From the NCBI RefSeq assembly GCF_965363235.1, contig NC_134841.1:30533440-30597439 (forward strand): 64,000 nucleotides of DNA, given 5' to 3'. The translations under genes and the position numbers were made by a program. Positions 17,154 through 29,931 of this stretch are shown here, piece by piece (position 1 is the stretch's first letter; the number at the start of each line of letters is the position of its first letter). This DNA comes from Mytilus galloprovincialis (lineage: Eukaryota; Mollusca; Bivalvia; Mytilida; Mytilidae). The notes beneath the pieces are model-generated. The model was not told the DNA's origin. It did no database searches and saw only the letters and a list, made by a program, of their open reading frames with translations.

Positions 17154-18982
17154 TTTGCAATCGATAATATCTGCGTAGTTATACGAAATACGTTCTGTTA
17201 TCATTCAAAAACGTAAGTCACGTATGAAGTAAGTAGAAATGTCTGTAGCTGCGGAACCGTAGCTCTTAGGTCTTTGACTATTTAATTTGCGGACCATCCG
17301 CAAACAGTAAAAAAATAACATAAGGACCTCAGAGCTACGGTTCCGCAGCAAAAATGTCTGCGGCAACATAACACCGGAAAAACTCTTGAATGGTAATCCG
17401 CTGTAAAAAGAAGATGTTTGAACCCATATACACAATTGGAGATTACGAGTTGTTACGAGAGAAATATCATGAATCTATTTTTTTTGTATGGCTGACTTTT
17501 TTCCTTTAAAGTTCATTTTTGTGTAAAAAATTTAATAGATAACAGATTAATAATCTACAAATGTATATGCTGTAAACTGGTAACATGTATAGGAAAATCA
17601 AAATATTTTCAATTCAAGTTTCCTGTTATACCAAAATATGTTGTGTATGAACGACAAAACGGAAAGAAGTCTTGTCATTTTTACCGGCTACTGATTTTTA
17701 TTTTTTCTCCAACAAATTAAGGCTACATTAGAGCATATATATAGCAAACACGTAATATGATTATAAACATATGCAAAAGAAAATATACATTCAATCTATA
17801 GAAAAGACATAAAATGAAAGAAAAAAGTAGTGTGTAAAGTTTTAAGCAATATTGAATAATCCTAAATCGTTTTTGAGATACAGCGCGACATGTGACCCCC
17901 CTCTTTTTTCTTTTACAAAAAACTCAATAACTCTTAAATAAAAATTTGAATCATCATCAAAAAGTATACAGATCTTTAGATTAATATAACTAAAGTTTTA
18001 AAGGGGCACTAGCTACGAGATATATAAAAAAAATCTAATACAAATGTAAATAATTGTTTTTTTCTCAATCATTAATGAAATGCAAATAGTGAAATAAACA
18101 TTCGCTTTTCGCAGCCAATATGGTAGAATTTTGTCAAAATAAGCTAAAAAAAAACATTGATTATTAATTATTCACTTGCAAGTGGATAATTCGACCTCAT
18201 TGAATATGTATTCATGTCAGTGAACCCAGTGTCTCGCCTACTTTTGCTGTTAATCGAAGGCTCAACAAAAATGAGGAAAAAAATCAATAAAATTATTCCT
18301 CTTGGTACTATCTTTTAATTGTAAGAAGCTTCTGTCAAATTTCGTTAAAAATTCAGGATAGTTTATGAATCTAAAATAAATGTTTTAACTGCAGACTGTA
18401 TGTAATGTTAATTAAATGGAAGAAAAACTAAGTCCATTTATAAGTAAAATCTAGATACACAGGCACAAAATTTAAACACAATTTCCTTCTGGATACTAGC
18501 TTTTGATCATAAACAAGCTTCTGTCAATTTTGAAACAAAACCAAAATAGAATAAGAAAGTTATTAAAATTTTAAAAACTTTAACCACAGAGTGAATGTGT
18601 TGTTTCCTGGCAGAAAATCTAAGTCCATTTATAAGTAAAACTAGAACACACCCGTGATATCGCGTGTCCGTGACTGAATTAAAGTATATAACTTTGCGTA
18701 AGCCTTATTTTAGTATTGGTATTGTCATCTGATAAAGTCATGCCGATTATAAGAGACAGAGTTTCTTTGCTTTCAAATCTTTCTGTTTGAACCCGTCGAC
18801 CTGGAACTTATCAATAATTGGTAATATCAATTATTTGGAAAACAAAAGGTCCTGGAATAGAGTATTTTTTAATCAACAGCATTGTCCTATATTAGCTATA
18901 AATAAAGTTGAATTCTTTGATTTGTCGTTTTTAACTCATGACGGCTGACAAATTGGACCTCGTTATTTTGTAATATATAGAT
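17154..18982. other. Right flank of foldback; older dispersed repeat with internal units
   Basis: A short palindrome lies at 17248-17349 (separate entry). From about 18180 to 18982 an older repeat carries units with AAGCTTCTGTCAA (18329 and 18517) and AAGTCCATTTATAAGTAAAA (18431 and 18620). At 18640 GAACACACCCGTGATATCGC begins another widespread mussel repeat. The same AAGCTTCTGTC unit continues beyond the nested insertions at 27318, so the older repeat is split by them. No gene seen. Confidence 0.5.
17248..17349. repeat. Short palindromic element
   Basis: GCTGCGGAACCGTAGCTCTT, continuing AGGTC, is mirrored by GACCTCAGAGCTACGGTTCC, continuing GCAGC: 25-bp arms with one difference and a 52-bp middle. 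The size and shape fit a MITE or an orphan hairpin. Confidence 0.6.
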
Positions 18983-19120
18983 CAGTGGCGGATCCAGGGG
19001 GGGGGGGGGGGTTCCGGGGGTGCGCACCCCCCCTTTATTTTTGCCGATCAATGCATTTGTATCGGGACATATGTTTTGCACCCCCCCCCCCTTTTGCCCT
19101 GGGTGCCCTGGGTTAGCACC

Positions 19121-19357
19121 TGTTATATACCTCTATTTGGTATTTCTGGTTACCGGAAATGTAGGACATAATTTATACTGTTTACTGTATTTTACGGGAC
19201 TGTATACCTTTTTTATGCTTGTCGGCGGCGAACAGTTAGTGTCGTCTGTCACCCATGTGTTTTGTTAGATGGCAGTAAAATAAAATTTGGAAAACGAAAA
19301 GCGTGACTTCAATCCCATAGTCCCCCCAGACAACAAAAAGGATTGAGGCCCACGACA
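19121..19357 (+). repeat. 5' LTR of the Gypsy element
   Basis: 237 bp, starting TGTTATATACC and ending CCCACGACA. It reads identically to the 3' copy at 26976-27212. An AATAAAA-type signal (TAAAATAAAATTTGG) lies in its second half. Confidence 0.93.
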
Positions 19358-19511
19358 TGGTGGAGGACTTAAAAGGCTCTTATTAGCGTAAATATTGCTT
19401 TTATTTGTGATATAATTTTTGGTGAACATTATCTTTGCGAACACGTGGAAGTGGACAATTTTGTCAGCGACAAGTCAGCTACATATTTTGATTAGTATCT
19501 CATAATTATTT

Positions 19512-19749
19512 GGTGATAAAGTATCGCCAGTGCATGTCTCAACAACTCAGCAATCCGATATTATCCGTTTTCGTTTATTTAGGAAGGAAAAATGATGCAT
19601 GCATAGACAGGGTGATAATAGTATCGCCAGTATTATAATATTGCATTCCAAATTAAATAAATGTGCAGTAAACAGTTTTGAATACGTGTGTAGACATATA
19701 ATATTTTCGATGTTCCAATTAATACTTGTTTGGTGATATTTGTATCGCC
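19512..19749 (+). promoter_or_regulatory. Three-hairpin cluster in the Gypsy leader
   Basis: Short stem-loops lie at 19512-19528, 19611-19628 and 19732-19749. Each reads GGTGATA, a 3-4-nt loop (AAG, ATAG or TTTG), then TATCGCC. The 7-bp stem includes one G-T wobble. The same stem with a changed closing pair recurs eight times in the 3' noncoding region. A role as an RNA signal (packaging, translation or protein binding) is a guess. Confidence 0.75.
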
Positions 19750-19816
19750 AATGAGTTTCAAGTAGTGCCTATTGTATCCATTCTATTAACATGAACACAA
19801 AGTTTTGTACCGGTAA

Positions 19817-21187
19817 ATGGTGATTATGTCAGATGAAAATTCCGAGCCTTCTATAGAACACAACGAATATCAAAGCGATTCAGAAACGGACAGTAACATA
19901 CAAAGTTTATCTTCTAGATCATTATTAAGTGACGGATTCCTTGAGGATAACGAAATTGTAGGACTAACAGAGTTTGATTTACAAAATGTAGGTGATGTTA
20001 ATTCTCCAGACAACACTGCAAATTTTGAACCAGAAATAAATGTGTTATTAGCCGAGGCAAGTCCAATTACATCTACCCCACAACCGTTAAATGTAACAGA
20101 AATCCCCACAGAATCGGTTGATCTACCTATTAAGATTCAGACTACTTCAATAATGAGCAAATTAGTCAGGTGTCGTGAATTTTCAGGATACCCCCAAGAT
20201 AATGCGAAAGGATTTTTCAGTGAATTTGAATCTTACGCACTTCTCCATGAATTGCCAGAAACAGACAAAAGACGCATTGCAGCATTTCATTTACATCTAA
20301 AGGGGCCTGCGTTAACTTGGTACAATTCTTTGAGTGACGAGTCTAAAAGTTCGTGGATAACAATTTGTGTTTTGTTCAAGGAAAAATATATAAATTTTAG
20401 TTGGCAAAGCGCAACAGTTATAATGGAAAGTGAAATTTTCCAAAACATGGTATTATCTCCGGGTCAGTCGTTAGAAGATTATTTCAGTCAGCTGTCGGAA
20501 AAAGCTCAAATATTAAGAAAGCATGACCACGAGTTAGTAGCAAAATTTATAAGTGGGTTGCCCGAAAAAATGTCGTTTTTTGTACGTGCTGGTCAACCAG
20601 TCGATGCACACCATGCCTTAACTTCTGCAAAAATGGCGGAAGCCTGTGGGTATAGACAACACGGAGACTCTATAAATGCTCTTAAACATGAAAATAAACA
20701 TGCACCTCGGCAGTTGCCAGGAAAATCAAACAGTACTGATTCCAACCAGAGCGAGGTTATCCGTGATTTAAAAAATCAGGTTGCTATTCTTACCGACTTA
20801 GTTCAGGGTAAACGCAAGGAGCATGTTCAGAGTGAACCATCACGTTCTGATGTTCATGACATTAGGGATCAAATCGGACAGTTAAGCGGTCTGATAACTA
20901 GTATGGCAGTCAGGGAAGTACCCCACAAAGAACCACAAAGACCTGAAAATACAAGCACGAATAATGCAAATACGTCTCGTTTTGACTCAGCTGAATGTAG
21001 GAGATGCAAAGGTCTCGGTCATTTTCAAAGAGTTTGTAACTGGAACGGGTATGGTCAATTTCAACCGTCTGATCAATGCCAACTGTGTAATCAGAATGGC
21101 CACATTGCTCAATCTTGTACCAAACTGGAGTTTTATGCACAGGGAAACAGAACCAACCCGGGTGTGGGGCACAATCGTCCGGGTTAA
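19817..21187 (+). CDS. gag: gag region of the Gypsy element
   Basis: An open frame of 456 codons encodes the structural Gag protein. The retrotransposon Gag homology region lies at about residues 120-230, with FHLHLKGPALTWYNSL and LEDYFSQLSEKAQIL typical of the family. Two CCHC zinc knuckles near residues 395-440 (CRRCKGLGHFQRVC and CQLCNQNGHIAQSC, both C-x2-C-x4-H-x4-C) would bind the element's RNA. The first about 110 residues are acidic and serine-rich. The pol frame begins upstream of the gag stop and lies in the -1 frame, so ribosomal frameshifting, known in many Gypsy elements, is the likely route to Gag-Pol. The start at 19817 is the first ATG of the frame; a second ATG lies four codons later. 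Confidence 0.9.
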   Translation: MVIMSDENSEPSIEHNEYQSDSETDSNIQSLSSRSLLSDGFLEDNEIVGLTEFDLQNVGDVNSPDNTANFEPEINVLLAEASPITSTPQPLNVTEIPTESVDLPIKIQTTSIMSKLVRCREFSGYPQDNAKGFFSEFESYALLHELPETDKRRIAAFHLHLKGPALTWYNSLSDESKSSWITICVLFKEKYINFSWQSATVIMESEIFQNMVLSPGQSLEDYFSQLSEKAQILRKHDHELVAKFISGLPEKMSFFVRAGQPVDAHHALTSAKMAEACGYRQHGDSINALKHENKHAPRQLPGKSNSTDSNQSEVIRDLKNQVAILTDLVQGKRKEHVQSEPSRSDVHDIRDQIGQLSGLITSMAVREVPHKEPQRPENTSTNNANTSRFDSAECRRCKGLGHFQRVCNWNGYGQFQPSDQCQLCNQNGHIAQSCTKLEFYAQGNRTNPGVGHNRPG

Positions 21188-24100
21188 CTTCGTCTATTGG
21201 TGCCGATTTTGATAAAAATTCAACTAAAGATAAATTTTTGTACATAACTGTTTTATTTGGTGATCTAAGAATAGCTGCATTAGTTGATACAGGGAGCTCT
21301 ATCAATGTCATTTCTAAATCTTTGTATGATTCGATATCCGATCGTCATAAACTTTATTTTGAACAACTAAGTGAATCGGAAATTCGATTAGCCAACAACG
21401 ATAAAATCAGAATTAACGGAATATCCAAACTTCAAGCCACAATTCATCAGAAAAATGAAATTATTGAAACATATATCATTCCCAAAACATCTCATCCTTT
21501 GATTCTCGGTACTGAATATTTACGAGAAAATAAAATTGTTTTAGATTTTAGTGATTTTAGTTGTAATCAGAAGACTGTGCCAGTTAAAACAGTTAAGAGG
21601 ATAGAACTTGAACCGAATACAGAATACTTGACTTTTGGGAAGTTACCAAATTACGTTACAGTCGGATTGCAAGGGATATGCGTAAACAGCAAATTTTCAG
21701 TTAACCACAAGTTTTTAGTTGCCAAATCTTTAGTTGTCGTTCCTGTCAATCGCAAAGTTCCGATTAAATTATTGAATGCTAGTAATGTGAAAATAACGAT
21801 TCCAAAAGGCAAAAATATTGCCGAATTTTCAACATTATCGAATGAGTACACCTATGTTGCAATGTCTGAAAAACCCGAGATACCCGAAGTGCAGAATATT
21901 CAGTTGGTTGCTAATGAAAATGGACTGCGGACCGATAATTCCGAACAGCAATGTGACATTACAGACAGTCCCGACAGGCAAGAAATTTTGACCAAGATTA
22001 AGACAGATTTTGATTTATCCGATCATTTAACACACGATCAAAAATCAGAATTAGCTGAATGTTTGTTGGATAATCTTGATTTATTTGTGACGAAAGAAAA
22101 TCCAAACCTTGGATATACACATTTAGTGGAGCATAAAATACATCTGAAGCCGAATGCTGTTGGTAAACATCATAAGCCGTACAGGTTACCCCCTTACAAA
22201 CGTGAGGTTTTGCGTGAGCAACTGGATAACTTGCTTGAACAAGGAATAGTTGTGCCAGTTAGTGAACAAGAGGAGCTACCCATTACAAGTCCGATAGTAT
22301 TAGTCACAAAGCGAAATGAAACGTCGAATAGTAAGACTTCAACTCAAAGTTATAGGTTTGTTTGTGATTTTAGACATTTAAACGCGCAAACAGAAGATTT
22401 TAAATATGTTATACCAAACTTACAGGAACTGACGGAATCCTTTGCTGAAATAGTACCAAATTATATAACTTCGATAGATTTATCTTCCGGATTTTTTCAG
22501 ATGGGCATATCCGCCGAATCTTCAAGATATACCGCTTTCAACACATGTTTTGGAACGTACAAGTTTTTAAGGCTGCCAATGGGGTTAAAGACGGCACCTA
22601 ACACATTTCAGCTTCTAATGGACAAGGTACTGCGTGGTCTAAAATTCAGAACTTGTTTGTGCTATTTAGATGACGTATTGATCTGCTCTGAAACCTTTGA
22701 AAAGCATTAAGACGATATAAAAGAAATCTTTAAACGATTTCGAGATGCAGGACTAAAACTTGGACAGAAAAAATGCCATTTTGCAAGTGAGACGTGTATT
22801 TTTCTTGGACACGAGATTTCTAAACATGGGATAAGACCCCCAAAAGATCGAGTGAAGGCTATTGTCGACTTTCCAGCACCACAGAATATAAAACAACTTC
22901 GTCGCACAATTGGATTATTTAACTGGTTTAAAAAGTTTATACCAAATTTCAGTGCTATAATTAGTCCACTCACTAAACTTCTGAAGAAAAATCAAAAATT
23001 TGAATGGAAAATTGAACAATCTACAGCATTTCAAAATCTTAAAACTCATCTTGTAAATACCGATAATCTCAGTTTCCCCCGTTTCGATTTACCGTTTATA
23101 TTGGCTGTGGATACTTCATCAAAAGGAATAGGGTACATGCTTTATCAGAAGGACCCAACAAAGGAAAAACCAAATATCATTCGTTTCGGATCAAAGTCTT
23201 TATCACGATGGCAGCAGTCGTATGGTCCTACGAAATTAGAGTTGTTGGGAATGGTCACTAGTATTCTTGACTGTGCGGACTATTTAAGGGGTACACAATT
23301 TATCGTGGAGTGCGACCACCAAGCACTCCAACCATTGTTTATGAAGCAATTCAAAGGAGCTATTTATGAGCGTTGGCTTGCCATTCTCCAGCAATTTACA
23401 TTTGAAATTCAATATAAGCCTGCAGAACAAATGAAAGTCGCTGATGCGCTCTCAAGATGTGAAAATCCCCAAAACATTCCGATCGAAAGCCCTGCAGAAG
23501 ATGATCCGTTTTTCCCCTTGGTAACAGAAAATACAGGAGAAATACGTTTACCCGGTGGAGTGAAATTTGTTGATTTATTTGAATCGAATGACAATACCGA
23601 CGTTGTTGTACAGGCTATAGACATAGTAGCTGACAAGCACATCGATTTATACAGTGTAGAAACTGACGAGCATGACTCGCTAAATGATCCATATGATGCC
23701 GATACGGACGAGTCAGACTCTTATGTACATAATCGCAAAAAGAAATTTGGCAGAAATAATCAGAACGTTGAACAACTTGCTAATACTTTGCGCGATTTTC
23801 AAGTTGGTGCAAATACCTCTAACATCAAAAAGTTACAACGGAAAGATAGCGATTTAAAGAAAATCATTGCATATTTAGAAGATGATGTTTTGCCAGATTC
23901 ACAAAAAGAATCTCGCCGTATTTTATTGGAGTCGTGTGATTTCATTTTAGTTGACGATGTGTTATATCACTGTAGAAAGGCAAAATCAGAAAGGACAAAG
24001 AACATGAGTGAATTTCAACTTGTTATTCCTAAGCAATTGATTTCGCAAATTTTAAAAATTACTCATGACTCCCCATTAGGTGGACATAGTGGAATTCAGA

Positions 24101-25548
24101 ATACTTTAGACTCTGTTAGAGAGCGTTATTATTTTGCGCGAATGGGTAAAATAATCAGTGAATACGTGCAATCTTGTCATGAGTGCCAGTCACGTAAAGT
24201 TAGCAATTTAAAAACGAAAGCAAAAATAGTAGCATATCCTACTCCTAGTGAACCATTTCAAGTATGGCAAATGGACATTTTTGGACCACTTGTTTCATCA
24301 AATAATGCCAATACATACGTTTTTACAGCAGTTGATGCTTTCAGTAATTTCTTGTTTGCTGTGCCATTAAGAAATAACGATGCAATATCAGTTTCTCAGG
24401 CAATTTTCAATTTTTTCTGTAATTTTGGTGTGTGTAGCACGGTTATTTCAGACCAAGGATCAGAATTTATTGCCAAATGTACAATGGAAGTTTGCAAAAT
24501 GTTGAATGTAGAGCAAGAATTTACACCTAGTATGATGCATCACTGTTTGGGTCGCTGTGAACGTACACATCGTACCTTAGCGGAGCGTTTAACGCCTTAT
24601 GTTTTAGACAATAAACAATGGGAAGAAATGCTTCCTGGAATAGTATTCTCAATCAATAGTTGTGTAAATTCAGGATCAAAATACTCTGCTTTTGAAATTG
24701 TCTACGGAAAAAGGCCAAATTTTCCGTTATCGCCTTCTTACATAGTTGATTTTAAAGATATTCCGAAAGATGTAAAAACCTATGTTGAGAATTTGAATGC
24801 CCGTTTGAACATTATTCGAGAGCATGTAAAATTGAATACCCTTGTTGCTCAACGGAAAATGGTAGAAACCGAAAATAAAAATGCACATGAACTAGATTTG
24901 ACCGTAGGCGACAATGTTTATTTATCCAGAGAGCCCGTTGGACAAGGCAGGAAATTTCAGCATATTTATGATGGACCGTTTACTGTAACATGTCTTCCGA
25001 GTGCACATCTAGTTATTTTAAGAGATCCAACAGGAAAGAGAAATTTTCGCCGTCCCGTGCACATCAATAGATTAAAGCTTGCACATATACGGGTGCCCTT
25101 ACCAGCACCTTATTTTAACCAACAAACCGACGAAAGTGAAAATACTAGCAGTAAGTCGGATAATAGTTCTAGCTCCGTTGACAGGGACACCTCGGAGAAT
25201 TCTAAGTCTATTTCTACAAATGTTACGACAGAAAGTGACGCCCCGGATACAGATGTGGTTTCTCAACATGATACTACAAATTTAAATAGACCAAGAAGGA
25301 ATATTCAGAAGCCTGTGCGGTACCGTGATGATAACTATATAGACCCCGATAAAATAGTGGATTCATGCGAAAACAATCAATTGAAAGTAAAACGTATTCT
25401 TGCCAAGCGAAAAGACGGTGCAAATTTCGTTTACTTGATTCAGAAAGTAGGAGAACCAGCACAGAATGCAATTTGGCTCCCTTTATCAAAATTACCACCC
25501 AAAGCACAAACCTTGCTACTTTCAAGACCACCGCCGTTGATTCAGTAG
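21115..25548 (+). pseudogene. pol: pol region of the Gypsy element
   Basis: Domains in order: an aspartic protease with the LVDTGSS active-site motif; reverse transcriptase with YLDD; RNase H starting near AVDTSSKGIGYML; integrase with an HHCC zinc domain (GGHSG, later CHECQ) and core motifs MDIFGP and ISDQGSEF; and a C-terminal tail. The last about 45 residues (VKRILAKR, YLIQKVG, WLPLSKL) look like a degenerate chromodomain, a module some Gypsy lineages use for target choice. The preceding stretch is Ser/Asp-rich. The region is well preserved with about one break, so this copy is probably not autonomous. The type label reflects that single defect. Confidence 0.88.
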
Positions 25549-25573
25549 TTATATTTTTAGTAAAATTTCGCAT

Positions 25574-26256
25574 GGTGATGATTGCATCGCCAAACGATTA
25601 GCTCAAGTCAAATATGTCATATATTGAAAAGTTATTCCAATGAAACAATCAGAGTGCCGTAGATGAAATTTCAGAAATCGGTTTAATTCCTTGTTTTGGT
25701 GATGATTGCATCGCTAAACAGAAAATGCGTGCGTTGTAAAGTGATGATTGCATCGCTTAACTGAAATTATACACTTCGTTTAAAAATAGCATTGATTGGA
25801 TGTCTTACAAAATTTAGTTGCGACCTTTTTAAAGTGATGATTGCATCGCTCAATTTATTTACACTTCGTTAAGCAATACCTATGTTTGGACTTTTGAGGA
25901 AGATAAATATATATGTATATTGTTGTTTTGGTGATGATTGCATCGCTAAACTAACATAACATTCGATTGCGGGATTTACACAGTTTATATGAACTATGCA
26001 GAAGGACATAATCTTCTTGATTTGTGACCTTTTTTTTTGGTGATGATTGCATCGCTCAATTTATTTACACTCCGTTAAGCAATACCTATGGTTGGACTTT
26101 TGTTCTGCTGTTTTGGTGATGATTGCATCGCTAAACTTACATACCTTAGATCGCGAGATGTGAGCAGTTACAGCCATACCCTGATTTTCAGCTATGGACT
26201 ACAGAAGGATATAATCTTCTTAATTTGTGACGTTTTTTGGTGATGATAGCATCGCT
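25574..26256 (+). promoter_or_regulatory. Eight-hairpin array in the Gypsy 3' noncoding region
   Basis: Stem-loops lie at 25574-25591, 25698-25715, 25741-25757, 25834-25850, 25930-25947, 26039-26056, 26115-26132 and 26239-26256. Their pattern is (G)GTGATG, ATTG (once ATAG), CATCGCC or CATCGCT. Spacing is irregular (about 40-125 nt between starts). The block around the fourth to sixth hairpins is a ~200-bp unit repeated once, since TTATTTACACTTCGTTAAGC recurs about 200 bp later with one change. The sequence between hairpins is much less conserved. Confidence 0.8.
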
Positions 26257-26975
26257 ATTATTGCATTGTACTAATGTAAATGTACTTTTATTTACTGTTA
26301 TTTTCGTATGATATTACGATTGATTGTTTTGATTTTTTCTTAAAGATATGCATTTCTATCATATGTTTCATTCAAAAGGTATATATATCATAAAGCTAGA
26401 TAAGGCATTAATTGAACAAGATGTGTTACATGCAACAGAATTGAAAAGTTTTTCAAATACTTGCGAAAGTTTTTCTCAGTTGAATATATAACGGTGTACA
26501 GAGTGTTAGTGTCTGCTGGAGTGAAAACCTGTATATTTTCTATAACATTGTTTATTGAGGCTGAGAGTGTATGTATATATGTCTATCAAAATTATTTTCA
26601 TGAAACTTTTGGCTACTTTATAAGTGTGCGTGTGATAGTGTTATACTAGATTGTGTTATTTAAAATAATTATATTAAGAGTTTCTGGTCTCTGCTAGCAG
26701 CACTGTGATTAGAGCACAAATTGTCACCAATATATAGCAAACTTAAGAGTGAAGTCAACTGTATAAAATGTTTATTAATCTTTTATTATATATGCAAGTA
26801 CAAACAAAACTGGGTCCATGTACGGAGTCTGAGACGGAGTTGGTGATGCCAGAGTGAGAAATGGTGTATACAAATTTGAAATATATTTTTGTTTTGTTTA
26901 TTGTATTGTTTTATTGATGTCTGCATTTCCAGTGACCAGACCAAAATTTTTCAAATTTTATATTTGGGCGGGGGA

Positions 26976-27212
26976 TGTTATATACCTCTATTTGGTATTT
27001 CTGGTTACCGGAAATGTAGGACATAATTTATACTGTTTACTGTATTTTACGGGACTGTATACCTTTTTTATGCTTGTCGGCGGCGAACAGTTAGTGTCGT
27101 CTGTCACCCATGTGTTTTGTTAGATGGCAGTAAAATAAAATTTGGAAAACGAAAAGCGTGACTTCAATCCCATAGTCCCCCCAGACAACAAAAAGGATTG
27201 AGGCCCACGACA
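26976..27212 (+). repeat. 3' LTR of the Gypsy element
   Basis: 237 bp, reading identically to the 5' LTR. It is preceded by the purine tract GGGCGGGGGA at 26966-26975 and followed by the CACC flank. Confidence 0.93.
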
Positions 27213-27252
27213 CACCCCCCTTTCGAAAATTCCTGCATCCGCCCCTGTAGAT

Positions 27253-28547
27253 GGATACAGAAAAAGGGAATTTTATTTTTACAAAATTTACTTCAGGATA
27301 CTTTCTTATGATTATAAACAAGCTTCTGTCTAAGTTTGGTAGAAATCCAGTTTAGTTTAAGAAAGTTATTAAAATTTAAAAAACTTTTACCAGAGTGAAT
27401 ATTTGTGGACGACGACGACGCAGACGGAATGTAGGATCGCTATGTCTCGCTTTTTCGACTAAAGTCGAAAGTTCGACAAAAATGATATAGTGTTGACATT
27501 GCTGAAGAATCTTACTCGCTCACTGTACTGCTTTATATTCATTGAATATTAAGATTAATGTGTAGGGTGGATGAACAGTTGGCTATTTGAAGTCCAGTGG
27601 CGCATACGGACGAGAAAATGCCAATGTGGTATGAATAATAAACTGTTTATGTATTAGAACCACTGATTGGTTTATTTACGTGCTAGTTCAAAAGGTTAAC
27701 AGGAAGACATATTTAATATGTCACACTGTTAGGACATCTCATTGTGACTCCGAGCCGACCCGTCTTTGCTCATACTCCTAAATGTCGTGTGCTTATCAAA
27801 GAATTGACAAATACCAATAAGTATGAGTCTTTGTTTTGAACCGGATAGTGATCAAACATACAGCCTCCGTACTTGGTGGTTGGGTGGTTAGTACACTGTT
27901 GGTAGTGGTGTTATGTCCCTTTATAAAAACAATACGGCGTCAAAGCAAAATTTGAAACGTTTTGCCCGAACAACAGATGAAGAAATTGATATTGAACAAT
28001 TGGAATAAATGCAAAAAAAACTCTACAGTTTACAAGTTGTTATTGCTGGCGATCGTTTTGTATAGACAGATGGATGTAGGTTCTTTTGTGTTGAAGACTT
28101 GATCACTTTGATAGGCCACTTGTCTTAATGCCATGTGCTAAGATAGTCGGTAAGATACATTCGGTACACAATGCGCTAGCGACATAGTACTATAGGATCA
28201 TTTACATAACAGCGTGGACAAGACCATTTCTTATCGCGCTCCGGTTATCAATTGACTGGGTCAGCTGAGGTAAAAGTTTGTGTTGATTTAAATGTTCAAT
28301 AATTTTATAATTAAATTTGCATGTACTTTACTCTTTTATTCTATTAACCTCCCATCTGGAATCTGCCACTGAATGAGCGTAACATCTCTGTTATCGATAG
28401 CAGATGACAAACAAGTTAACAACATAACTATGATCAACTATTGCGGATGTCCACGCTGTTATAACAATGATTCTATATATGGAGTCAGTTAATATTGCTT
28501 ATGGGGTCACGATTTGCTCTCACCAAACATGGAATATAATGATACCC
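27253..28547. other. Continuation of the older repeat, then unassigned sequence
   Basis: To about 27480 this continues the AAGCTTCTGTC repeat split at 18982 and ends with a GACGACGACGACGCAGACGG run and CTCGCTTTTTCGACTAAAGT. From 27480 to 28547 I see no gene. A 31-codon frame at 27913-28008 is discussed under rejected items. Confidence 0.4.
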
Positions 28548-28850
28548 ATAAATATCGTATAAGGCCGCTCGAACCTCATTTAAAATTTACTGACCCATAT
28601 GTACCGTATATGAGGTCGCTCGAATCCCATTATAAATTTTCTGACCCCATTTATATCGTATTAGGTCGCTCGAACCCCATATGCAATTTACTGACCCCAT
28701 AAATATCGTATAAGGCCGCTCGAACCTCATTTAAAATTTACTGACCCATTTGTACCGTATATGAGGTCGCTCGAACCCCATATGCAATTTCCCGACCCCA
28801 TATATATCGTATTAGGTCGCTCGAACCCCATGTCCAATTAATGGCCCCAT
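28548..28850 (+). repeat. Minisatellite with ~50-bp monomers in a ~151-bp higher-order unit
   Basis: Monomers share TCGCTCGAACCCCAT or GCCGCTCGAACCTCAT and ACTGACCCCAT. AATATCGTATAAGGCCGCTC occurs at 28551 and 28702, 151 bp apart, giving three monomers per higher-order unit and about two units. Noncoding. Confidence 0.8.
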
Positions 28851-29931
28851 ATATCACATTTGGTCACTAGCACAATCTTTACTGACTTATACTAGTATTG
28901 GTAGTTTTCTTAGTATTCTTCATTTATAGATCTCTGAATATCGATGATCATAATTCATATGATACACTGCTACTTTTGTGTAGGTACTTTTTCTGTACTA
29001 AAACATGTAGTACTGGAAATTTACTTTTAATATTTAGTACTATTTCTTTACTTTAAAATTATTGTAATATTTAGGTACCTTTTCTTTTACAGTACTGTAT
29101 TTGTAATAAAAATGCTGAAAATCAAATGTAACAGTGTAACCAAAAATCTGTAGTACTTAATTTTCAAATTACAAATCAAGTACTGTAAAATACAGATACC
29201 TAAATATTACAATAATTTCACGGTGTAGAATGGTAACGGACTTATCGGTTTTTTTTCGACGTTTCCGCACTAATCGGGTTCAGCAACGGGTTTATCGTGT
29301 TTTCAGGTGACAACATTTGGCGTTAACACATGACAAGGGTAAAATCTCTTTGTTCTTACTGTGCTATAATCTGGATAATGCACAGCAAAGGTGGGTTTGG
29401 ACGACCAATGCAGTTTAGTATGGCGTTCATTATCACAGATCTAGTATATATATATGTTTAGTGGCCAGCTGATGGACGCCTCCGGGTGCGGGAATTTCTC
29501 ATTGCATTGAAGACCTGTTGGTGACCTTCTGCTGTTGTCGGTTTTATGGTCGAGTTGTTGTCTCTTTGACACATTCCCCATTTCCATTCTCAATTTTATT
29601 TGAATGGGAACATATAGTTACTCTGGGTTGGGACCCCCTTTTAAAATGGCTGGATCCGCCCATGTAATAAATTTTGTCAAAGTTTTAATCGTCATTAATT
29701 AAATTAAACTGTGAATAAATTTAACAGAAACGATAAAAAAAAAACTACCATTATATCGCAATTTTAGAATAAGTCTAAAATTTAAAAAAAAGTTATTAAT
29801 TTAAAACTTACCAAAGTCGCATTTTCCCCCTATCTTTACCCCACAAGAAACTTTCCTAGGTTCGTAGATTGCGGAATATCGTCCACATTTCTAAAATGTT
29901 CACGTAAATTGATTGCGTCATGGGTTAAAAC

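Follow-up and report, generated by a model that had tools for sequence, protein, structure and literature searches.

The way in which a Gypsy-type retrotransposon picks out its own RNA is ill defined, even in the case of Ty3, to judge from the part of a Ty3 review that was available (PMC4974528). The question is raised anew by a Gypsy element in a 64-kb stretch of Mytilus galloprovincialis DNA (64,000 nucleotides, nt; the whole stretch analysed, here referred to as the window), in which one small hairpin is repeated eleven times on both sides of the coding region. Comparison with related families gives good support to the view that these hairpins are copies of one RNA stem-loop, which is read on the sense strand, is under selection and recurs on either side of gag-pol, and we regard the RNA structure itself as almost certainly real. 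As to its role, we give about even odds (roughly 0.5) to the reading that the hairpins constitute a conserved, repeated recognition element in the full-length transcript, which would be bound by Gag for packaging.

Eleven stem-loops in the noncoding regions of the element

The pattern GTGATN{3,8}ATCGC, which was derived from the hairpins themselves, matches 11 times in the window, always on the + strand and always within the noncoding regions of the element, with three matches between the 5′ long terminal repeat (LTR) and gag and the other eight downstream of pol, ahead of the 3′ LTR (25574 to 26239). Shuffled controls yielded a mean of 0.31 and a maximum of 2 matches (100 shuffles). The hairpins are as follows.

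19512..19528, + strand: hairpin 1, GGTGATA AAG TATCGCC (pattern match, folded alone)
19611..19628, + strand: hairpin 2, GGTGATA ATAG TATCGCC (pattern match, folded alone)
19732..19749, + strand: hairpin 3, GGTGATA TTTG TATCGCC (pattern match, folded alone)
25574..25591, + strand: hairpin 4, GGTGATG ATTG CATCGCC (pattern match, folded alone and in the whole stretch)
25698..25715, + strand: hairpin 5, GGTGATG ATTG CATCGCT (pattern match, folded alone and in the whole stretch)
25740..25757, + strand: hairpin 6, AGTGATG ATTG CATCGCT, outer pair A-U (pattern match, folded alone and in the whole stretch)
25833..25850, + strand: hairpin 7, AGTGATG ATTG CATCGCT, outer pair A-U (pattern match, folded alone and in the whole stretch)
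25930..25947, + strand: hairpin 8, GGTGATG ATTG CATCGCT (pattern match, folded alone and in the whole stretch)
26039..26056, + strand: hairpin 9, GGTGATG ATTG CATCGCT (outer pair shifted by one base in the predicted fold)
26115..26132, + strand: hairpin 10, GGTGATG ATTG CATCGCT (pattern match, folded alone and in the whole stretch)
26239..26256, + strand: hairpin 11, GGTGATG ATAG CATCGCT (folds alone, not in the minimum free energy structure of the whole stretch)

Folded singly, each of the eleven adopts the core of six pairs (z −2.8 to −4.8), and seven of the eight 3′ cores form in the minimum free energy structure of the whole 752-nt 3′ stretch. This stretch is only moderately more stable than its shuffles (z −1.89; antisense, z −0.72). 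In the predicted fold of its antisense strand none of the eight stems is formed in full, because the U.G pair turns into A.C.

A preliminary description of the window had reported eleven stem-loops built on the common frame GGTGAT. All eleven are present; the frame itself occurs in nine of them, those at 25740 and 25833 reading AGTGATG...CATCGCT. With A-U as the outer pair of these two, the outer pair across the eleven is G-C, G-U or A-U and is not limited to G-C and G-T wobble as had been stated. The reported division of loop-closing pairs, A-T before gag and G-C after pol, holds for the three and eight copies in the window and is no general rule, as among the related families introduced below A-T closes loops after pol in B and C, both pairs occur after pol in D, and G-C is found before gag in C. 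Nor are the spacers uniformly poorly conserved, since the segments 25826-25896 and 26032-26102 are 93% identical, spacer included. Local duplication thus produced part of the 3′ array, whose eight copies cannot be counted as independent. The covariation seen within the window comes down to one loop-closing pair (A-T on the 5′ side, G-C on the 3′ side); it is weak and could reflect a single event spread by duplication.

Compensatory change and strand bias in related families

Relatives of the element were sought in the 1.38-Gb genome, where a DNA search with the 3′ array returned at least 46 matches and an integrase search at least 105; both figures are lower bounds, and the sequence letters were examined for part of the matches. 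The related families were labelled A to K, with A denoting the family of the window. A similar stem-loop was present both before gag and after pol in nine of the 11 Mytilus families examined, so that the hairpins are not confined to the window copy; such confinement was what the preliminary description had named as fatal to its proposal. Families A to D carry an unbulged stem, usually GGTGANR-tetraloop-YNTCGCC. A bulged form is found in families E, F, G, H and K, in which outer arms of approximately 2-7 bp are followed by one unpaired base, usually C or T, and then by GTGRNN-tetraloop-NNYCRY; the leader hairpins of family F were detected through a covariance model only. Families with approximately 44-65% integrase identity to that of the window are among those that bear hairpins.

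The hairpins extend to a second mussel genus. A search of GTDB contigs returned one locus, L104 (JACCHT010000022.1). It is a retrotransposon of host type, located on a contig that is assigned to a Bathymodiolus septemdierum symbiont (Candidatus Thiodubiliella) and most likely reflects host contamination of the symbiont assembly. This element has two hairpins upstream of gag and six downstream of pol, and a single position is unpaired in one of the latter. In the integrase tree it groups with Mytilus families B and D (100/100) and with B alone at 90/57, and its hairpins resemble those of family B most. Family F, which is bulged, falls beside the group of B, D and Bathymodiolus (94/87). In families B, C and D and in Bathymodiolus, core pair 5 is mostly G-C in the leader and mostly T-A or A-T in the 3′ region. 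In family G, the second 3′ hairpin (GTGGGA tttt CACCGC) keeps its outer arms and lacks the two loop-proximal pairs in four of five copies (L092, at 98 of the oriented 3′ region, L106, L107 and L121; L108 was unmatched).

For each form an alignment was built. The bulged alignment comprises 28 rows from five families and omits the bulged-family rows L099:18-44 and L122:645-671 (overlapping or chance hits), rows of the same type from other sources, L097:525, L058:434, 1467 and 3187, and L104:6837 (no sensible stem), and the leader hairpins of family F, which were found later; such anchor hits as L109:219, L111:170 and L110:481 lay outside the scanned sub-regions and hence were not candidates. The unbulged alignment comprises 44 rows and omits subfamilies A2 and A3, two L051 rows, L085:1313 and L056:1765. 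Neither includes the triloop hairpin at 19512 or the hairpin with a 5-nt loop at L111:516. Since core pairs 1 to 4 are partly fixed by the search pattern, the informative pairs are 5, 6 and the outer arms. Two kinds of control were used, shuffles, which ignore relatedness, and slid alignments, which preserve it.

In the bulged set, 92.9% of cells were paired compared with 75.7% in shuffles (0/500 as high), 53 cells carried double changes, covariation reached 0.588 against a slid maximum of 0.218, and two-sided change occurred at eight of 11 pairs. The bulge-adjacent pair (n = 28) was G-C in 10 rows, C-G in 9, A-U in 8 and U-A in 1. Across 21 distinct pairs of outer arms, 96 of 105 positions pair, compared with a mean of 58 and a maximum of 76 in 20,000 permutations. 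The unbulged set had 88.9% of cells paired versus 80.8% in shuffles (0/500) and a covariation of 0.302 versus a slid maximum of 0.139, with core pair 5 being U-A in 28 rows, G-C in 10 and A-U in 3, and core pair 6 A-U in 24 and G-C in 18. The slid controls fell far below the true register in both sets, for covariation as well as for cells paired. Compensatory change therefore exceeded the shuffled and slid controls, as is typical of a conserved structured RNA, with the exception of two of five measures in the unbulged set. The earlier proposal that the RNA fold is kept by compensatory change is thus backed by covariation across related families: the test of stem-preserving change that it had suggested, run in kind on these relatives, was positive apart from those two measures, and, contrary to its refuting outcome of one-sided stem changes, many of the changes were two-sided, with a minority of pair cells failing (7.1% bulged, 11.1% unbulged).

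Within the family of the window the stems are also constrained. Between the window copy and 14 autonomous copies of its family we counted 4/1386 substitutions in stems, 3/396 in loops and 279/6959 in spacers, so that stems vary approximately 14 times less often than spacers; the compared copies share ancestry, and the substitutions are not independent events. In five deletion derivatives, described below, the corresponding counts were 8/403, 0/116 and 150/1795. A covariance model of the bulged form recovered its own input hairpins as well as the leader hairpins of family F, which the pattern had missed and which have C-G instead of A-U at one core pair.

Genomic scans pointed to the sense strand. 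When only four core pairs were fixed, the sense strand gave 96 hits and the antisense strand 8 (near-copies of A, B, E and G included), and both free inner pairs formed in 84 of the 96 and in one of the 8, respectively. A relaxed scan of 42.3 kb yielded 78 full hairpins in sense and 4 in antisense orientation. Genome-wide, GTGANNATTGNNTCGC, in which the inner pairs are free, occurred 271 times compared with 12 for its control. Of these 271 places 100 were listed, and for 77 of the 100 a match to integrase, gag or ORF0 (described below) is found no more than 8 kb away; all 77 have at least one such match on their own strand. The remaining ones comprise 11 in three clusters lacking integrase, gag and ORF0 matches in the lists obtained and 12 others. 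The AT-rich pattern GTGANNTTTANNTCAT showed a weaker excess (1322 versus 533 for its control) and included many unrelated strings.

A candidate packaging tag and its alternatives

A group of deletion derivatives bears on the function of the array. L052, L053, L055 and L056 (2554-2746 bp) consist of LTRs, the start of the leader, a middle part containing ORF0, hairpins and the 3′ region, and L050 (2571 bp) has the same layout with a partial 5′ LTR. They retain the first 91-101 nt of the leader and five to seven hairpins, and no gag or pol match was found in any of the five. Their LTRs are 85-98% identical to those of the window. In genome G000 they are located on C14 (L050), C6 (L052), C13 (L053), C3 (L055) and C10 (L056), and L053 and L056 are flanked by their own 4-bp target-site duplications, CTAG and CAAT. 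The 5′ LTR of L052 doubles as the 3′ LTR of a neighbouring autonomous copy. Searching with the middle part gave ten strong genomic matches, grouped into nine places, and at eight of the nine (L050-L053, L055, L056, L058 and L059) the array follows ORF0 with no gag or pol in between. The idea that the middle open reading frame (ORF) was foreign was rejected, as it is the same ORF0 that lies upstream of gag in other families; the derivatives thus look like products of gag-pol deletion. With nine places, and with duplications of their own in at least two cases, they seemingly moved without a gag or pol of their own. Such retention in cis by derivatives lacking gag and pol is what a packaging signal would leave behind, and it is suggestive only, since other sequence was kept too.

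According to the packaging reading, the array would act in cis as a tag on the genomic RNA of the element, and the element's own machinery, most likely the nucleocapsid region of Gag with its two zinc knuckles, would select the tagged RNA for packaging. Multiple sites flanking the coding region would provide avidity, and tagged RNA without gag and pol could enter particles and be mobilised in trans. Recognition by Gag draws indirect support from the retention of the array in the derivatives, and this retention, together with the hairpin form shared by Bathymodiolus and its close relative, favours a partner encoded by the element. Nucleocapsid zinc knuckles bind RNA, which makes Gag the first candidate. 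The choice is also in line with Ty3, the packaging of whose RNA is described in the available part of the review as dependent on untranslated regions (UTRs) or POL sequences, with the Gag binding sites imprecisely defined and the RNA structure uncharacterised (PMC4974528).

Several observations weigh against this reading or against parts of it. Families I and J, although matched by the gag and integrase queries as well, have no hairpins in their leaders or in 3′ regions reaching the LTRs, so the tag is not needed by every relative. The derivatives also retain approximately 700 nt of other 3′ sequence, and the array may in part have been kept simply through the way in which the deletion came about. 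Classical retroviral packaging signals are mostly located at the 5′ end, whereas eight of the 11 hairpins here lie 3′ of pol. Moreover, the bulged and unbulged forms each fail to make up one clade in the integrase tree, with two changes each, and the bulged model found no significant match to the unbulged form (the lowest E value was 0.31, for the window; those for L083 and L079 were 0.61-0.69, and L104 and L082 gave no match up to an E value of 1). The kinship of the two forms consequently rests on core letters imposed by the search, on position and on the related genes. As to the structure, pair 6 is unpaired in seven of 28 bulged rows, the two outermost pairs of the unbulged form fail in 22 and 16 of 44 rows, two of its five measures do not rise above the shuffles (348 and 328 of 500 shuffles as high), and the hairpin at 26239 pairs elsewhere in the predicted whole 3′ fold.

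A host RNA-binding protein acting in export, germ-line localisation, stability or translational control, by analogy with retroviral transport elements and 3′-UTR stem-loops, is a possible though clearly less probable partner than Gag. It would fit repeated 3′-UTR hairpins with a fixed core, and all Mytilus families share one host, nine of them having the GTG...YCRY core (partly imposed by the search). However, the bulge and loop vary among families of one genome, the hairpins of Bathymodiolus, a different host, resemble those of a close relative of the element, families I and J have none, and neither the window element nor seven other loci matched a fitting Rfam family. The ORF0 protein might instead be the partner, or the hairpins might regulate expression at the ORF0-gag junction, which we consider unlikely. 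At least one leader in each of families B, C, D, E, F, G and K and in Bathymodiolus has hairpins following ORF0, the derivatives without gag and pol retain both, families I and J have neither in the stretches examined, and an active SGNH esterase of some non-LTR elements is thought to take part in ribonucleoprotein assembly, as stated in the available part of a study of bdelloid rotifer elements (PMC5408684). Against this, hairpins occur without an ORF0 match in leaders of A (window and L097), H, L094 (B) and L116 (C), the predicted fold of ORF0 is that of a GDSL esterase and not a known RNA-binding fold, and a role at the junction leaves the 3′ arrays unexplained. Somewhat more doubtful still is a two-part system, in which the arrays would be the shared tag of an autonomous family and an ORF0-bearing partner family. 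The family of the window, with no ORF0 in its examined leaders, would supply Gag and Pol, the small partner family, lacking gag and pol, would supply the SGNH-like ORF0, and ORF0, Gag or both would read the tag; as both RNAs are tagged, each could move with the help of the other. If true, this would amount to a segmented-genome-like lifestyle for a lineage of Metaviridae.

Three further explanations were considered and rejected. Arm exchange between hairpins, whether it joined the two arrays of one RNA (cyclisation) or connected two RNAs (dimerisation), is very unlikely: the left and right arms of all window copies are almost interchangeable, yet the bulged outer arms vary among copies of one element and match within each hairpin, which indicates selection for local hairpins. 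More improbable still is a role of the palindromes at the DNA level, as binding sites of a dimeric protein resembling the clustered Su(Hw) sites of Drosophila gypsy. Near-palindromic clusters outside ORFs would suit such sites, but the two strands are not equivalent. U.G is found at core pair 2 in all 44 unbulged rows and in 14 of 28 bulged rows, and G.U at core pair 1 in 16 of the 28 (at these positions the pattern allowed A/G and C/T); these become A.C mismatches on the opposite strand, where no 3′ stem forms in full. Both the U.G pairs of the sense strand and the bulge speak for a structure in RNA and not in DNA; the bulge and the changing outer arms are unsuitable for a DNA site, and the strand agreement of the 77 element-linked places among the 100 listed also speaks against it. 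Neutral tandem duplication of a chance inverted repeat is the least credible explanation, for although local duplication made part of the 3′ array, hairpins with compensatory changes are found in families of approximately 44-65% integrase identity to that of the window and in another mussel genus, and in the family of the window the stems are far less variable than the spacers.

Compared with known systems, the hairpins recall the retroviral psi signal in that several stem-loops lie near gag and are potentially readable by zinc knuckles; unlike psi, they are of one type, repeated up to eleven times and mostly placed 3′ of pol, and the binding of Gag is putative. Iron-responsive elements are likewise found in UTRs and may be arranged in short series. 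Like these elements and the coat-protein operator of coliphage MS2, the hairpin is a short stem-loop that may have a 5′-side bulge, and the MS2 operator shares its four-base loop; however, the loop and bulge positions differ, and the core stem sequence is conserved here. The insulator of Drosophila gypsy likewise consists of clustered repeated sites (Su(Hw)) in a Gypsy noncoding region, but it is a DNA-binding array, whereas the present one is a sense-strand RNA structure. In its gag-pol with the order reverse transcriptase (RT), RNase H and integrase the element resembles Ty3/Gypsy (Metaviridae); it differs from Ty3 in its repeated array, the word hairpin having no occurrence in the available text of the Ty3 review (PMC4974528). 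GDSL-bearing LTR retrotransposons of bdelloid rotifers share an extra SGNH/GDSL ORF, which is ORF3 there and lies upstream of gag here, and the available text on them contains neither hairpin nor stem-loop (PMC5408684). Neither hairpin nor UTR occurs in the consulted main text of a survey of mollusc LTR elements (PMC6238403). The earlier remark that no described Gypsy element has such an array agrees with our searches: no description was found among the open-licence PMC papers listed, judged by title or start of abstract, and in Rfam the window element gave a single match, to U4, which stayed below threshold and was confined to the minus strand, and the seven other loci none up to an E value of 5, the iron-responsive element included.

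The hairpin could thus be a candidate RNA-selection signal that is readable from sequence, being small and present as variants in several families and two mussel genera. With families I and J as natural negative controls and the gag-pol-less derivatives as natural minimal elements, it can be tested in vitro. The hairpin is also a structured-RNA marker for this lineage of retroelements.

The window element, ORF0 and further matches

The element in the window is a recently inserted Gypsy copy in the Mytilus genome, with the following parts.

19117..19120: target-site duplication CACC, left (read from the sequence)
19121..19357, + strand: 5′ LTR, 237 bp, TG...CA, 100% identical to the 3′ LTR (direct repeat)
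19358..19816, + strand: 5′ leader, beginning with TGG (putative primer-binding site) and containing three hairpins
19817..21187, + strand: gag ORF, 456 aa, Retrotrans_gag (zinc knuckles by eye)
21115..25548, + strand: pol reading frame (RT, RNase H, integrase), with an in-frame stop in the window copy
26966..26975, + strand: putative polypurine tract GGGCGGGGGA (read from the sequence)
26976..27212, + strand: 3′ LTR, 237 bp (direct repeat)
27213..27216: target-site duplication CACC, right (read from the sequence)

Paired TG...CA LTRs and a short target-site duplication are characteristic of Ty3/Gypsy elements, as is the Pfam order in pol (RVT_1, RT_RNaseH, Integrase_H2C2, rve). Gag matched Retrotrans_gag (E value of 3e-9) and, slightly below the cut-off of 20.8, zf-CCHC (E value of 9e-4, 19.6 bits); two CX2CX4HX4C knuckles were identified by eye. 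Unlike in the stop-bearing window copy, pol is open over 1485 aa in other copies. Its best named matches are Mytilus proteins, with up to 99% identity to M. galloprovincialis P0069 across 31% of the query and 88% identity to M. edulis P0001 across 93%. Between pol and the 3′ LTR there is no ORF of 100 aa or longer.

ORF0 (approximately 240 aa) precedes the leader hairpins in families B, C, D, E, F, G and K, in the derivatives and in the Bathymodiolus element; the assignment means a match in at least one leader per family, several stretches being partial and family B being represented by a single copy in two frames. No ORF0 was found in the examined leaders of families A (window and L097), H, I and J, the B copy L094 and the C copy L116. 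The following stretches were delimited.

L113:3-716, + strand: ORF0
L110:2-772, + strand: ORF0
L096:1-600, + strand: ORF0
L109:1-510, + strand: ORF0
L111:541-999, − strand: ORF0
L104:1-636, + strand: ORF0

A relative of ORF0, P0121, is named SGNH hydrolase-type esterase in UniProt. The score against Pfam Lipase_GDSL was 20.8, under the cut-off of 23.6, and the predicted structure (pLDDT 88.9) matched GDSL lipases (best E value of 8e-7, TM 0.6). Identity of ORF0 between families is 40-63%. The nonsynonymous rate (dN) was below a saturated synonymous rate (dS) in four of 15 family pairs, those with an estimable dS, and omega was 0.24 to 1.04 among three derivatives with very few changes. ORF0 is open across 246 aa in L050 and L056.

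A pol search of viral contigs with a single sequence and with an alignment found no relatives, and a hairpin 16-mer matched 25 IMG/VR contigs once each, which was taken as chance and left unused. The three clusters away from the listed integrase, gag and ORF0 matches consist of three to four family-F-like hairpins each (G000:C2:114988161-114988361, C3:101181440-101181606 and C5:72930543-72930647) and may be missed, diverged or non-autonomous copies. In a separate genome listing, GTGATAATTCATCGC on G000:C1 (e.g., 2255567-2255581) accounts for 12 of the places listed; it may belong to an unrelated repeat whose inverted motif is similar. The flanks of the window element, 18470-18600 and 27275-27406, are alike (76-84% identity), so the element may be inside an older repeat, and a tandem array with a period of approximately 50 bp lies just downstream at 28537-28854.

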